Positions 4,548 to 60,323 of a DNA stretch of 64,000 bases are shown piece by piece. Under the pieces are notes generated by a model, which worked only from the letters and a program-made list of their open reading frames with translations, did no database searches and was not told the origin of the DNA. Within the stretch, counting starts at the first letter, position 1; each line of letters starts with the position of its first letter. The position numbers and the translations under genes are program-made. This DNA is from Pricia antarctica (lineage in GTDB: Bacteria; Bacteroidota; Bacteroidia; Flavobacteriales; Flavobacteriaceae), in NCBI RefSeq assembly GCF_900101815.1, contig NZ_FNAO01000002.1, positions 496,001 through 560,000 on the forward strand. Reading direction: 5' to 3'.

Positions 4548-4711
4548 AGTGTTAAGTTAAAGCTGAAATGGCGTATAAGTCAATCGTGGATTTTGTGGTA
4601 GCCCTAGACAAAAAATCATTGCATAGACGTAGCTACGGAATTATTTTTTAACGACGGGATGCCGCAAAAGACGCATTGGATTATGCGACGATTTTGGCTT
4701 AACTTAACACT
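4548..4711. repeat. 164-bp imperfect palindrome (MITE-like element or long hairpin)
   Basis: The element begins AGTGTTAAGTTAA and ends TTAACTTAACACT, which are exact reverse complements. Similarity between the two halves continues inward for about 60 bp with mismatches, so the single strand would fold into one long hairpin. It fills most of the gap between the second Gfo/Idh/MocA gene and the cytochrome fusion gene. No clear target-site duplication is seen. It has no open frame. It could be a non-autonomous mobile element or a structured transcription attenuator. Confidence 0.7.
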
Positions 4712-4731: not shown

Positions 4732-7700
4732 ATGGTATATAGAAGTAAAGGTTTTATCGGAACGATAGTTTTGATAGTTTTACTTTTAATAAGCTGTACC
4801 GACGAGGAAGAAGGTAAGATACAAGTCCATAATCAAGACCATATCGTCCTTATCGGCAACAATCTCCCCTCCCGAATGATGAACTTCGGGCATTTTGAGA
4901 CGGAACTGCAGCTACGCTATCCCGATAGCACCCTCTTCATCCGAAATATGGGCGATGGCGGTAATACCCCAGGTTTTCGGCCGCATTCGGCAAGGAATTC
5001 CCCTTGGGCATTTCCGGGCGCCGAAAAGTTCCAGACCGAATATGCCAATAAGTCGGGCAGTATCGGCCATTTTCCAACGGAAGATGAATGGTTGACGAGC
5101 CTGGGTGCCGATATCATCATCGGTTTCTTCGGTTATAGCGAGTCCTTTCAAGGTGAAAAGGGATTGCAGAATTACAAGGATGAACTGCACGCCTTTATCG
5201 AACATACCAAAAAGCAGAAATATAATGGCGAATCGGCACCGAAACTGGTACTGGTGTCGCCCATAGCCTTTGAGGACCTATCGGATGAAATGGACTTGCC
5301 GAACGGCGTCGAAGAAAACAAGAACCTTAAGCTATATGCGGATGCCATGGCCGAAGTAGCGGCCAAGGACAGCATCCCTTTTGTGGATGCCTTTAAAGCT
5401 TCCAAAAAATGGATGGATTCCGAAGATAAAAACATAACGGCCGACGGTTTTCAACTCAATGACTACGGATACCAAAAGTTCGCCAAACTATTGACCGATG
5501 AAATTTTTGGAGCCCATGAAAGCGTGGCCGAAGCCAACCGCAAAGCGGTGCATGATGCGGTGCTGGACAAAAACTGGTATTGGCACAACGACTTCAAGAT
5601 TCCGAACGGTGTTCATGCTTACGGTCGGCGCTACGACCCCTTCGGACCGGCAAATTATCCCTTCGAAATTGAAAAGATCCGTGAGATGACGGCCAACCGC
5701 GATACGGCCATTTGGAACGCGGCGGCCGGTAAGTCGACCGACTTGGTCGCCATGGATGCCAAGACCGAAAAACTACCTCCGGTAAAGACGAATTATAAAG
5801 AAGTCGATGGGTCTGGGGACCCAAAATACCTGTACGGGCAGGAAGCGCTTGATAAAATTAAGGTTCCGAACGGCTACAAACTCGAACTCTTCGCTTCGGA
5901 AGAGGAGTTCGAAGATCTGGCCAACCCGGTACAACTGTCCTTCGATAACAAGGGTCGGTTGTGGGTGGGCGTCATGCCTAGCTATCCGGCCTACAAACCG
6001 GGCGACCCCAAACCGAACGATAAACTGCTCATTTTGGAAGATACCGATAACGATGGCAAGGCCGACAAGCAAACCGTTTTTGCCGACGGCTTGAGCATGA
6101 CCATTGGTTTTGAGTTTGCGCCCGAAGGGGTATATGTTTCGCAGGCACCCAATCTTGTTTTGCTGAAAGATACCGATGGCGACGATAAGGCCGATACCAA
6201 AGAAATCATACTTAGCGGCTTTGACGACCACGACACCCACCATGCTATCAGTGCCTTTACGGCCGATCCTTCAGGTGCCCTTTATATGGGAGAAGGTGTC
6301 TTTTTGCATACCAATGTAGAAACTGCCTACGGTACCGTTCGTGCCACCAATGGTGGCTTTTACCGTTATAGTCCGCAACGGCATTATTTGGAACGTACCG
6401 CACAACTGCCGATTCCCAATCCGTGGGGGATTGCTTTCGATGAATGGGGGCAACCCTTCTTCGCCCACACCTCGGGTCCCGATGTGACCTGGATGATGCC
6501 CGGAACGATCAAGTCCCGCTACGGCCAATCGAACCCGCTTCCCCAAAATATTATCGAGGAAGCCCATCGGGTACGGCCTACATCAGGACTGGAATTTGTC
6601 TCGAGCCGGCATTTCCCCGATGAGGTACAGGGCGATATGCTGATCAACAATACGATCGGATTTTTGGGAACCAAACAGCATATCGTGGTCGATGACCCGG
6701 AATCCTCAGGGTACACCAGTAAACATCGACTGGACTTGCTGACCTCGACCGATTCCAATTTTCGTCCCGTGGATATGGAATTCGCTCCGGACGGTTCGCT
6801 GTATTTCGTCGACTGGCACAATGTGCTGATCGGCCACATGCAGCACAACGCCCGCGACCCCCTACGCGATCATGTGCACGGAAGGATCTATCGCATGACC
6901 TATCCTTCAAGACCTTTAGTACATCCCGCAAAAATCGACGGAGCAACTATTGCCGAGCTTTTAGAAAATTTAAAACTTCCCGAATACCGTTCCCGGTATC
7001 GTACCCGGCGTGAGCTTAGGGGTAGGGATGCCGATAAAGTGCTGCCCGAATTGAAAACTTGGGTCCAAGATCTGGACAAAGACGATCCCCGTTACGAACA
7101 CCATGTGCTGGAAGCCCTTTGGGTGACCTGGGGTCTGAACCAGGTCGATGAAGATCTATTAAAACAAATGTTGAACGCCAAGGATTTCAGGGCGCGTGCC
7201 GCTGCGGTACAAGTGTTGCGCTATGCAGGTCACCAGATTCCCGAACAGGCCGATCTGTTGATGGCCGCTGCCAAAGACGAAAATCCGCGCGTACGTTTGG
7301 ATGCCCTGGTCGCCGCTTCTTGGTTGGATGAGAAAACGGGAGTACCCATTGTGGAAGCCGCCGGAAAATTACCAATGGACGATTGGATGCAAAAACCTTA
7401 TGAGGCGGCCCTGGCCCATTTGAAGGGATACAATTTGGGGGAGGACGAGTCCCACAAAACGAAAACAACTCTTGAAGGAGCCGCCAAGGAACTTTTCGTC
7501 AAAGGCGAGGAAATCTATAACCGCGAAGGCTATTGCGTCACCTGCCACCAACCGGATGGTAACGGACTGAGCGCTTCCCAATTCCCCCCACTTGCCGGCC
7601 AAAAATGGGTCACCGGGAGTGAAGAGCGTCTGATAAAGATAGTCCTTAAAGGATTGATGGGCCCGCTCGAACTCGAAGGCAAAACCTACCCCGGTCAAGT

Positions 7701-36475: not shown

Positions 36476-36967
36476 ATGGACACATTACAACAATTAAAAG
36501 ATGAGTTCACCTACGAGTACAATGTCACCAAAAATTTCTTCGACAAATATCCCGAAGGAGAAAACAACTATGCGCCGCATGAAAAAAGTATGAAGATGAT
36601 TTCTTTGGTCACTCATATCGCGACTATTTTTGGATGGCCGGTTGTCATCTTGAATACCTCCGAACTGGATGTCACCGAAGCGCAAGCGGATAAAATCGAA
36701 AACAAAGCGCAGTTAAAATCGGTGTTGGATCAAGAATACAAGGCATCCTTATCGGCATTGGAACAGGCTTCGGAGTCGGACATCGAACCGAATTGGGCGC
36801 TCACTATGAACGGCCAGAAATTGATGGAATGGACAAAATACGGCGCCATTCGCCACGGACTCAACCAAATTAGCCATCACCGAGCCCAGTTGGGAGTGTA
36901 CTATCGATTGTTGAATATTCCGGTACCTGCGAGTTATGGGCCCTCTGCCGATGACCAAGGCCTCTAA
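36476..36967 (+). CDS. DinB family protein
   Basis: 163-residue four-helix-bundle DinB-like protein. Metal-site histidines are recognisable in SLVTHIATIFGWP (first), GAIRHGLNQISHHRAQLGVY (second and third), giving the usual three-His arrangement. Members are thiol-dependent or uncharacterised metalloenzymes related to YfiT/DinB. It is a complete homologue type of the decayed DinB gene at 57875-58343. The start ATG 36476 gives an ordinary N-terminus. Confidence 0.9.
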   Translation: MDTLQQLKDEFTYEYNVTKNFFDKYPEGENNYAPHEKSMKMISLVTHIATIFGWPVVILNTSELDVTEAQADKIENKAQLKSVLDQEYKASLSALEQASESDIEPNWALTMNGQKLMEWTKYGAIRHGLNQISHHRAQLGVYYRLLNIPVPASYGPSADDQGL

Positions 36968-37147
36968 ATGAACTCATTTAGACGTATTGTTTGGAACGGG
37001 GAATATCGGCTTTTGAGGTCAGATGAAGTCATTTTTTAACGGCATAGTAGGATTATGGTTTTCAAAAATGAGAAAATAGGGCCTCACAATGTGATATATG
37101 CAGGTAAAAGAATACGTCTAAACGACCTCACTGTAAACAAATTTCAA

Positions 37148-42363: not shown

Positions 42364-42541
42364 TACCTTTGTCCTTTTAATAGCGTGTTCAAAAATACTG
42401 CTTATTCAAAACCAGTATTTTGAGAACTTTGGCGTCAGATTAAAAAGGTCCCCTATTTCGGTATGCGACCGATTTAATTTGTAGCTAGAACCTCAAACTC
42501 CTGATTTAAAGTGGGCATTGTTTTAAAACATGCTCTAAAAC
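42364..42541 (+). repeat. 178-bp repeated promoter-leader element, copy A
   Basis: It aligns without gaps to 58361-58538, with about 128 of 178 identical positions by hand count. It opens with TACCTTTG (TAnnTTTG -7 box) at 42364-42371 and ends in an imperfect 22-bp dyad at 42520-42541. Its hairpin arms include AAAATACTG (42392-42400) against CAGTATTTT (42413-42421). It stops 7 nt before the nitroreductase ATG, so the transcript would carry the element as a structured 5' leader. Confidence 0.75.
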
Positions 42542-42548
42542 CCGAACT

Positions 42549-43103
42549 ATGATTTTTGATTTGATAAAAAAAAGACGGGCCGTATTTCCCGCACAATACA
42601 ATGATGCATCCATTGCCAAGTCCGATATTGAAAAAATTCTTGAAGCCGCAAATTGGGCCCCGACCCATAAAAAGACTGAACCCTGGCGCTTTAAGGTGAT
42701 GGTGGGCGATGCGAAGGAGAAATTGGGACTCTTCCTATCCTATAAGTATATGGAAACCGAAGCGAGACCCAAACAGGTGAAGGTGAAAAAACTAATCGAA
42801 AACCCGAAAAAGGCGGGGGCCATAATCGCCATCTGTATGCAGCGGGATCCCCAAGAACGCATTCCGGATTGGGAAGAAGTCGCAGCTGTCGCTATGGCCG
42901 TGCAGAACATGTGGCTCTGCTGTACCGAAATGGGCATCGGATGTTATTGGAGCTCCCCGGGACTTGTAAAATATATGGATGAGTTTTTTGACTTAAACAC
43001 GGGGGAGGTTTGTTTAGGGTTCTTTTATATGGGGCACTACGATGGGGAAATCGACGAGCAGACTCGTACGCCGATAGGGGAGAAGGTAGTTTGGATGGAG
43101 TAA
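42549..43103 (+). CDS. nitroreductase family protein
   Basis: 184-residue FMN-dependent nitroreductase of the short YdjA-like type. Typical stretches are KKRRAVFPAQY (FMN phosphate site), AANWAPTHKKTEPWRF, and MGIGCYWSSPGLVKY near the C-terminus. These enzymes reduce nitro, quinone or enone substrates with NAD(P)H. The gene stands alone behind the 178-bp leader element, and its downstream neighbour is on the other strand with convergent stops (43103 and 43104), so any regulation by the leader affects this gene only. Confidence 0.92.
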   Translation: MIFDLIKKRRAVFPAQYNDASIAKSDIEKILEAANWAPTHKKTEPWRFKVMVGDAKEKLGLFLSYKYMETEARPKQVKVKKLIENPKKAGAIIAICMQRDPQERIPDWEEVAAVAMAVQNMWLCCTEMGIGCYWSSPGLVKYMDEFFDLNTGEVCLGFFYMGHYDGEIDEQTRTPIGEKVVWME

Positions 43104-58360: not shown

Positions 58361-58538
58361 TATATTTGGCGTTCTTAGAGTATGTTTGAAAACCCTGCTT
58401 CCTGAAAACCAGTATTTCGAGAACCATGGCGTCAAATTAAATCAGTCCTGTCCCTCGATATGCGACCGATTTAATTCATAGCCAAGACCTCAAAATACTG
58501 ATTATCAGTTAGCATTGTTTTAAGCGTACGCTTAAAAC
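58361..58538 (+). repeat. 178-bp repeated promoter-leader element, copy B
   Basis: Gapless paralogue of 42364-42541. It opens with TATATTTG (exact TAnnTTTG) at 58361-58368. It can form a long stem: CAGTATTTCGAG (58410-58421) with CTCAAAATACTG (58489-58500), and AATTAAATC (58435-58443) with GATTTAATT (58468-58476). It ends with a perfect 22-bp palindrome (GTTTTAAGCGT and its complement, 58517-58538), 12 nt before the MutS-like ATG. Confidence 0.75.
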
Positions 58539-58550
58539 AAGAAACGCCGC

Positions 58551-60323
58551 ATGCAAGATCTGACTTCCTTTTATACCAATGAAATCAAGAAATACGGGGC
58601 GGAACTATCCCGGATAAAAAAGATACTTTTTGCCTCGAGCATGATCCGTCTGGCGGTTTTCTGTGTTGCGGGCCTCGGCATTTATTTGGTCTTCGGTAAT
58701 ACCAAATGGGTACTGGCAATCATACTGCTGGCCATCGTTCTTTTTCTTTTTCTAGTTTCTAGACATTCCGACCTGCAATATAAGCGGGATAGGCTAAAGG
58801 CGCTTATACAGATCAACGAAACCGAAATCAAGGTTCTGCGGCGCGATTTTCACGATTTGCCGGAAGGGGATGTATTTAAAGACCCGCTACATTATTTCAG
58901 TCAGGATATCGACCTCTTCGGAAGGGGTTCATTTTACCAATACGCCAACCGTACGGCTCTGCAACAGGGCAGTGATACCTTTGCGGGATTGCTTAAGGAA
59001 AATTCCATTGCCAACATTCCGGAAAAACAGGAAGCTATCAAAGAACTCGCCCAAATTCCGGAATGGCGACACGATTTTGCTGCTAATGCATCCTTGGTCA
59101 AGGCAGAAAAGCCTTATCGCGCCATCATCGAATGGATGAAGAACTACAATCCGTTCGTTCCTAGCTCGATGAGGTATGTGCCGTTAATCTTCTCGGTGTT
59201 TTCGGGTGTACTGATCGCGACCTATTCTCTTGGAGGAATTTCTGGCTGGTTGCTGACTATCTGGTTTTTCTTAGGATTGGGAATTACTGGTCAATTCTTC
59301 AAAAAAATCAATGTGCTTTCTTCAGACGCCTCAAAAATATCGGACACTTTTCAACAATACCAAAAATTGATTGTTGCCTTGGAAAATATCAATTTCGAAT
59401 CCGATTTGCTCAAGAAAAAAAAGAATGCCATTCTCCGGGAAGTCGAAAAGACTTCTAAAATTTTAAAGCAATTTTTAAAACTGTTATATGCACTAGATCA
59501 AGGCAGGAATCTTTTAATGGGACCGTTGGTCAACGGATTTTTTTTATGGGATTTGCAACTGGCTTATAAAATTGAAAAATGGGTAAAACATCACGGAAAC
59601 TCGGTCGAGGAATGGTTCGACACAATAGCCTTTTTCGATGCATATAACAGTCTTGGCAACTTCGCTTTTAATCATCCAAAGTATTCCTATCCTGTTTTAT
59701 CCAAGGGGGAAATTGTGCTGAAGTCCGAGGGGGCCGGCCATCCCCTTTTACATCCTGAAAAAAGCGTCCTGAACGATTTCCAAATCGGAAAGGAGCAGTT
59801 TTTTATCATTACGGGCGCCAACATGGCGGGAAAAAGCACCTTTTTGCGCACCGTATCTTTACAGATCATGATGGCCAATGTGGGGCTTCCGGTCTATGCC
59901 TCATCAGTCGAATATTCTCCCATAAAACTGATAACCAGTATGCGTACGACCGATTCACTGACCGATGACGAGTCCTACTTCTTTTCCGAACTGAAACGCT
60001 TGAAGTTCATTGTCGATGAAATACAAATGGATCGGTATTTTATTGTGTTGGACGAAATACTGAAAGGCACGAACAGCACCGACAAAGCAAAGGGAAGTCG
60101 AAAATTCGTCGAGCGTTTGGTCAGATCGAAATCCACGGGAATCATCGCCACACATGACCTTAGCCTGTGCGAGGTCGCCAAAGAACTCCCCCAAATAGAA
60201 AATCATTATTTTGACGCCGAGATTATCGACAACGAGCTGCATTTTGATTACAAGTTCAAAGAGGGCATTTGCCAGAATATGAATGCGTCGTTTTTGCTTA
60301 GAAAAATGGAAATTGTTGATTAG
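58551..60323 (+). CDS. membrane-anchored MutS-family ATPase
   Basis: 590 residues. Two N-terminal helices (MIRLAVFCVAGLGIYLVF and WVLAIILLAIVLFLFLV) and two more near 205-250 (VPLIFSVFSGVLIATYSLGG) precede the MutS-like lever and ATPase. Walker A is GANMAGKST (422-430), Walker B is FIVLDEILKGTNSTDK and the signature region is STGIIATHDLSLCEVA. No mismatch-recognition domain I is present. This membrane subtype is known in Bacteroidota and has no established function. Expression probably starts in the 178-bp leader directly before it. Confidence 0.9.
   Translation: MQDLTSFYTNEIKKYGAELSRIKKILFASSMIRLAVFCVAGLGIYLVFGNTKWVLAIILLAIVLFLFLVSRHSDLQYKRDRLKALIQINETEIKVLRRDFHDLPEGDVFKDPLHYFSQDIDLFGRGSFYQYANRTALQQGSDTFAGLLKENSIANIPEKQEAIKELAQIPEWRHDFAANASLVKAEKPYRAIIEWMKNYNPFVPSSMRYVPLIFSVFSGVLIATYSLGGISGWLLTIWFFLGLGITGQFFKKINVLSSDASKISDTFQQYQKLIVALENINFESDLLKKKKNAILREVEKTSKILKQFLKLLYALDQGRNLLMGPLVNGFFLWDLQLAYKIEKWVKHHGNSVEEWFDTIAFFDAYNSLGNFAFNHPKYSYPVLSKGEIVLKSEGAGHPLLHPEKSVLNDFQIGKEQFFIITGANMAGKSTFLRTVSLQIMMANVGLPVYASSVEYSPIKLITSMRTTDSLTDDESYFFSELKRLKFIVDEIQMDRYFIVLDEILKGTNSTDKAKGSRKFVERLVRSKSTGIIATHDLSLCEVAKELPQIENHYFDAEIIDNELHFDYKFKEGICQNMNASFLLRKMEIVD

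Follow-up and report, generated by a model that had tools for sequence, protein, structure and literature searches.

Why do two unrelated genes carry the same long leader? The question is raised by two stretches, 42364-42541 and 58361-58538, in a window of 64,000 nucleotides from the Pricia antarctica genome (contig NZ_FNAO01000002.1, positions 496,001 to 560,000). The first precedes a gene for a nitroreductase family protein (42549..43103, + strand; PF00881, E = 2e-26), and the second precedes a gene for a membrane protein with a MutS domain V ATPase (58551..60323, + strand; PF00488, E = 7e-28). These domain matches bear out the view of an earlier note that the downstream genes are unrelated. 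The note had also described a gapless pair of equal length with about 72% identity, and the exact count gives 128 identities in 178 positions. The similarity fades upstream as had been noticed, the preceding 50 bp agreeing at only 12 positions. In a whole-genome search with copy 2 as the query, copy 1 was recovered with E = 1.7e-25. Taken together, these three results indicate that the similarity is genuine. The explanation held with near certainty here is that both stretches are copies of one 155-bp IS5-type MITE, which inserted between existing promoters and start codons.

Boundaries and ends of the element

The register of the element was set by an alignment of the genome copies, in which homology runs from GAGCATGTTTAAAAAC to the same sequence inverted. 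The family consists of 155-bp non-coding elements with the termini GAGCATGTTTAAAAAC...GTTTTTAAACATGCTC. The ends are 16-bp terminal inverted repeats in the consensus, with 15/15 matches in Muricauda relatives, and the element matches its own reverse complement at 67-72% along its entire length. In other words, the whole element is an imperfect hairpin. With lengths of 154-155 bp and no transposase, the window copies fall in the MITE range of 50-1000 bp.

Copy 1 occupies 42381..42535 (155 bp, + strand) in the leader of the nitroreductase gene and is 85% identical to the family consensus, its register being set by its ends. Its left terminal inverted repeat (42381..42396, + strand) differs from GAGCATGTTTAAAAAC in having T as the first base, and its right one lies at 42520..42535 (+ strand). 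The trinucleotide TAA flanks it as a target-site duplication at 42378..42380 and 42536..42538. Copy 2 occupies 58378..58531 (154 bp, + strand) in the leader of the MutS-V ATPase gene, is 86% identical to the consensus, and has terminal repeats at 58378..58393 and 58516..58531 (both + strand) between two TTA duplications (58375..58377 and 58532..58534). The note's pair of 178-bp elements is thus upheld in its similarity, but not in its size, which is 155 and 154 bp, or its number, as the genome holds the element in 13 places.

TAA or TTA is duplicated perfectly around 6 of the 10 full copies in the Pricia set, which includes one copy from the same-genus genome G003; the duplication of one of the six, on contig C19, is based on the empty site in G003. 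The chance of such a result is ~6e-9, assuming independent bases. The other four full copies lack a perfect duplication, which counts against the MITE reading. A TNA target with a 3-bp duplication, as found in this family, is a feature of IS1031-group IS5 elements, which reportedly insert at TNA and generate a 3-bp repeat (PMC12016507).

Copies in the genome and empty sites

The earlier note had proposed a genome search for further copies, taking matches in all kinds of context, accompanied by target duplications, as support for a mobile element. The search found nine near-full-length copies (two on C17, one each on C18, C19 and C20, and two each on C27 and C28) and four fragments, and G003 adds one full copy and one decayed co-insertion. 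The sequence of the element was also recognized in L048 (G003) and L165 (Pricia sp. LH_M77). The copies do occur in any context and with target duplications, which by the note's own measure makes the element mobile. Copies on C20, C28 (C28a), C18 and C19 lie between divergent genes or beside a 5' end, those named C27a, C28b and C27b lie directly after stop codons, and the G003 copy lies within the 3' end of mutY. The neighboring genes have no common function. Two shortened derivatives have lost the middle of the element and retained both ends. One of the C27 copies (L008 1660) was inserted right at a TAA stop codon, and the stop is preserved by the target duplication.

Empty sites were found in one relative. 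G003 lacks copy 2, and its flanks are contiguous across a single shared TTA (...CCTATATTTGGCCTTCTTAAAACAAGAAACGCCGCATG). The C19 copy is likewise missing from G003, at a single TAA. The orthologous place of the copy at C28:353899 holds a decayed, internally deleted copy in G003, so this insertion is old. The element is also absent from the copy 1 site in relatives, where the intergenic flanks are too diverged for a clean empty junction.

Relatives elsewhere and a likely IS5-family partner

Scanning 84,980 species genomes for TNAGAGCATGTTTAAAAAC returned 61 stretches. The genome of Aquimarina sp. RZ0 contains >100 such ends, many of them paired 155 bp apart with TAA or TTA duplicated, and dozens of 155-bp homologues that agree with the Pricia consensus at 73-77% identity. 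The duplication was present at 32 of the 36 sites listed in this Aquimarina-type set. The same ends also bound other elements whose cores are unrelated, with lengths of 161 bp in Muricauda, 159-172 bp in a Chitinophagales bin, and 131 and 76 bp in a Humisphaera bin. In a Muribaculum bin (L149 2219-2258), two GAGCATGTTTAAAAAC ends form a bare 40-bp palindrome flanked on each side by TAA.

Aquimarina sp. RZ0 also carries an 884-bp IS with the ends GAGTATGTTTAAAAA and TAA on both sides. Its transposase matches the IS5 model NF033580 at 149.8 bits (cut-off 110), an assignment at the level of the family only, and it also matches PF13340 and PF01609. With the same ends as the MITE, this IS is its likely autonomous partner. 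Neither the P. antarctica genome nor any of its three relatives yielded a transposase with matching ends; PF01609 matches in the genome itself and PF13340 matches in the genus were considered as the parent and rejected, having other ends or no matching ends. As no such transposase was found in their own genome, the Pricia copies look like fossils.

Outside the genus, the element was found in none of 397 genomes of the family with two candidates scored per genome, which is weak evidence of absence. Weak matches to copy 2 in other families (L017-L021) lie in genes or unrelated DNA and were set aside as chance. A plasmid collection yielded no match to the element, and viral contigs yielded one locus with the end sequence.

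Promoter, operator or regulatory RNA?

Do the leaders owe their promoters to the element? Flavobacterial sigma-A is known to use TAnnTTTG as its -7 box (PMC9723704), and a similar sequence, TACCTTTG (42364..42371, + strand), stands before copy 1, as the box TATATTTG (58361..58368, + strand) stands before copy 2. The insertion target lies 6 nt downstream of the box in both, near the expected transcription start. This equal spacing favors a mobile element with its own promoter driving the downstream genes, and the earlier note had placed the 5' boundary of the element at the box. However, the first 17 nt of each stretch, including the box, are host flank outside the repeat. At the copy 2 site the identical TATATTTG is found in G003 and TATCTTTG in G002, both without the element and each lying 33 nt ahead of the start codon. 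At the copy 1 site, again without the element, the orthologous gene is preceded by TATCTTTG in G002, TAACTTTA in G003 and TAACTTCG in G001; TATCTTTG alone fits TAnnTTTG, and the G003 and G001 variants are weaker. Beside the 36 Aquimarina-type insertions TAnnTTTG was not enriched (0 near, 0 far). An insertion preference for sites beside -7 boxes was rejected on this ground, and the equal distances at both window copies were accordingly put down to coincidence. A promoter carried by the element is thus very unlikely, and judged from sequence the promoters at both leaders appear to belong to the host. The note's mobile promoter-carrying element was right about mobility, given the duplications, empty sites, dispersed copies and matching autonomous IS, but the promoter finds no support. 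A short operator for one transcription factor, duplicated before its target genes, could be read into a perfect 26-bp palindrome at 58515-58540. The palindrome, however, is made of the right terminal repeat of copy 2 and host TTAAAAC, which also occurs at this site in G003 without the element, and it is missing from the other copies. The 22-bp dyad that had been assigned to the element likewise has an outer half (TTAAAAC or TAAAAC) of host DNA past the insertion point. A shared operator is hardly credible.

A structured cis-regulatory RNA, that is, a riboswitch-like leader common to a small regulon, would account for the position of both window copies in probable 5' leaders. The long structured region reported for both was confirmed, as their folds are much better than those of dinucleotide shuffles (z = -6.5 for copy 2 and -3.7 for copy 1). 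Any long inverted repeat must fold strongly. Does the hairpin covary? Between Pricia and Aquimarina, both sides have changed in 22 of 59 pairs, and the covariation score of 0.219, against 0.134 in shuffles (0/500), is also above every slid control; this inter-genus signal represents few independent events that are shared by descent. Among the nine Pricia-genus copies, in contrast, pairing is 82.2% as against 81.8% after shuffling of partners, and doubly changed pairs number 5 against 4.7 in shuffles, with no excess. The copies within Pricia thus speak against a riboswitch-like regulon, the excess being found only between genera. Moreover, only 2 of ~14 copies lie ahead of a gene as a leader, and others lie after stop codons or between divergent genes rather than consistently upstream of genes of related function as riboswitches would. 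Rfam has no match for the element, and such RNAs have neither terminal repeats nor 3-bp target duplications. These observations lend no support to a regulon sharing an RNA or an operator as the note had envisaged it, and a regulatory RNA must be considered highly improbable.

As there is no covariation beyond shuffles in Pricia, the copies there decay unconstrained; as pairs covary between Pricia and Aquimarina, the hairpin was maintained during the mobile phase of the element. How was it maintained? Selection is one explanation and template switching between the arms another. Template switching reportedly both generates and preserves hairpins (PMC8794818).

Model for the origin of the two leaders

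In the model of an inserted MITE, an IS5-family transposase supplied in trans would have recognized the ends, moved the element and later been lost from the lineage. The shared ends point to such mobilization in trans. The element targets TNA, here TAA or TTA, and duplicates these 3 bp. The box lies 6 nt before the target and the element ends 13 nt (copy 1) or 19 nt (copy 2) before the start codon, so the promoter and the start region remain intact. The mRNA leader would gain a hairpin of ~155 nt, and the effect on expression, if any, would be local and incidental. After insertion the copies decayed independently. The element belongs to a common type of mobile DNA and is not a new shared genetic switch.

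Comparison with known elements

ERIC/IRU, Correia (NEMIS) and RUP are bacterial MITEs of ~100-170 bp whose long inverted repeats fold when transcribed and which often lie in UTRs; they duplicate TA. The Pricia element differs from them in its IS5-type ends and TNA target, theirs being other ends. The enterobacterial repeats among them have been described in the literature (PMC2759123).

IS5-derived MITEs of Porphyromonas gingivalis (MITEPgRS/MITE464 and BrickBuilt; PMC4596501) are likewise short, non-coding, intergenic elements of Bacteroidota, and their termini match an IS5-family IS and start with GAG. Fragments of BrickBuilt had promoter activity in E. coli (PMC4596501). However, the P. gingivalis termini, GAGACTGTTGCA, are different from those of the Pricia element, and BrickBuilt holds a 23-nt tandem repeat whereas the Pricia element is an end-to-end hairpin with a fixed length of 155 bp. 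IS1031-group elements such as ISLrh share with the Pricia element the TNA target, the 3-bp duplication and ends beginning with GA(G/A), and their size of ~860-890 bp (PMC12016507) compares with 884 bp for the Aquimarina IS. Unlike them, the window element codes for nothing, and the Aquimarina transposase is placed only in the IS5 family. The sequence family is new in that it was not found in Rfam and a literature text search brought up no publication about MITEs in Aquimarina; IS5-type MITEs as a kind are already known.

Other hairpin repeats

The window contains two further hairpin repeats. One of ~155 bp at 4550-4710 (z = -5.2) has the arms GTGTTAAGTTAA...TTAACTTAACAC and lies before a gene for 1052 aa at 4732; the apex of this hairpin, TGCATAGACGTAGCTACGGA, agrees with a motif found in other hairpin repeats of Pricia and Aquimarina, with a chance expectation of 0 in the window. 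The other, at 36970-37130 (z = -5.7), lies between a gene that ends at 36967 and the coding region that follows, and is 68% identical to a repeat family of G003 (L075). Aquimarina sp. RZ0 has another high-copy repeat, ~160 bp long and nearly identical between copies, with the ends ATACGATTT...AAATCGTAT and the apex AAGCATAGCTATAGCTACGGTTT (L111 5860-6020, L111 6310-6480, L203 720-880 and other sites). The apex GCATAGCNRTAGCTACGG reappears in repeats whose ends differ widely.

In the sister species G002, the leader of the nitroreductase gene (L065 1325-1507) holds, in the 182 nt directly after the TATCTTTG box, a hairpin repeat that is unrelated to the MITE. It is apparently an independent insertion in the same leader. 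Repeats of G003 and the core of the Muricauda element are related to this hairpin. These bacteria have several families of end-to-end hairpins of 130-170 bp that are unrelated to one another and share leaders, including two different ones at the nitroreductase gene of two sister species. One possibility, which we regard as unlikely, is that end-to-end hairpins are kept for a function while mobile (for example a transcribed RNA, hairpin-dependent mobilization or a neutral insulating leader), and that unrelated MITEs converge on lengths of ~130-170 bp and come to rest in the same leaders time and again. If so, an insulating hairpin would let insertions in 5' UTRs survive.

Implications

An inserted MITE explains how unrelated genes come to have a long structured leader in common without shared regulation, and it is a warning that such pairs of leaders are not to be taken as riboswitches. 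The likely autonomous partner in Aquimarina and the Pricia fossils with clean empty sites together offer a system for testing what a hairpin does between a promoter and a start codon. To our knowledge, the phylum is one without Shine-Dalgarno sequences, and this would be the setting of such tests of expression from hairpin leaders.
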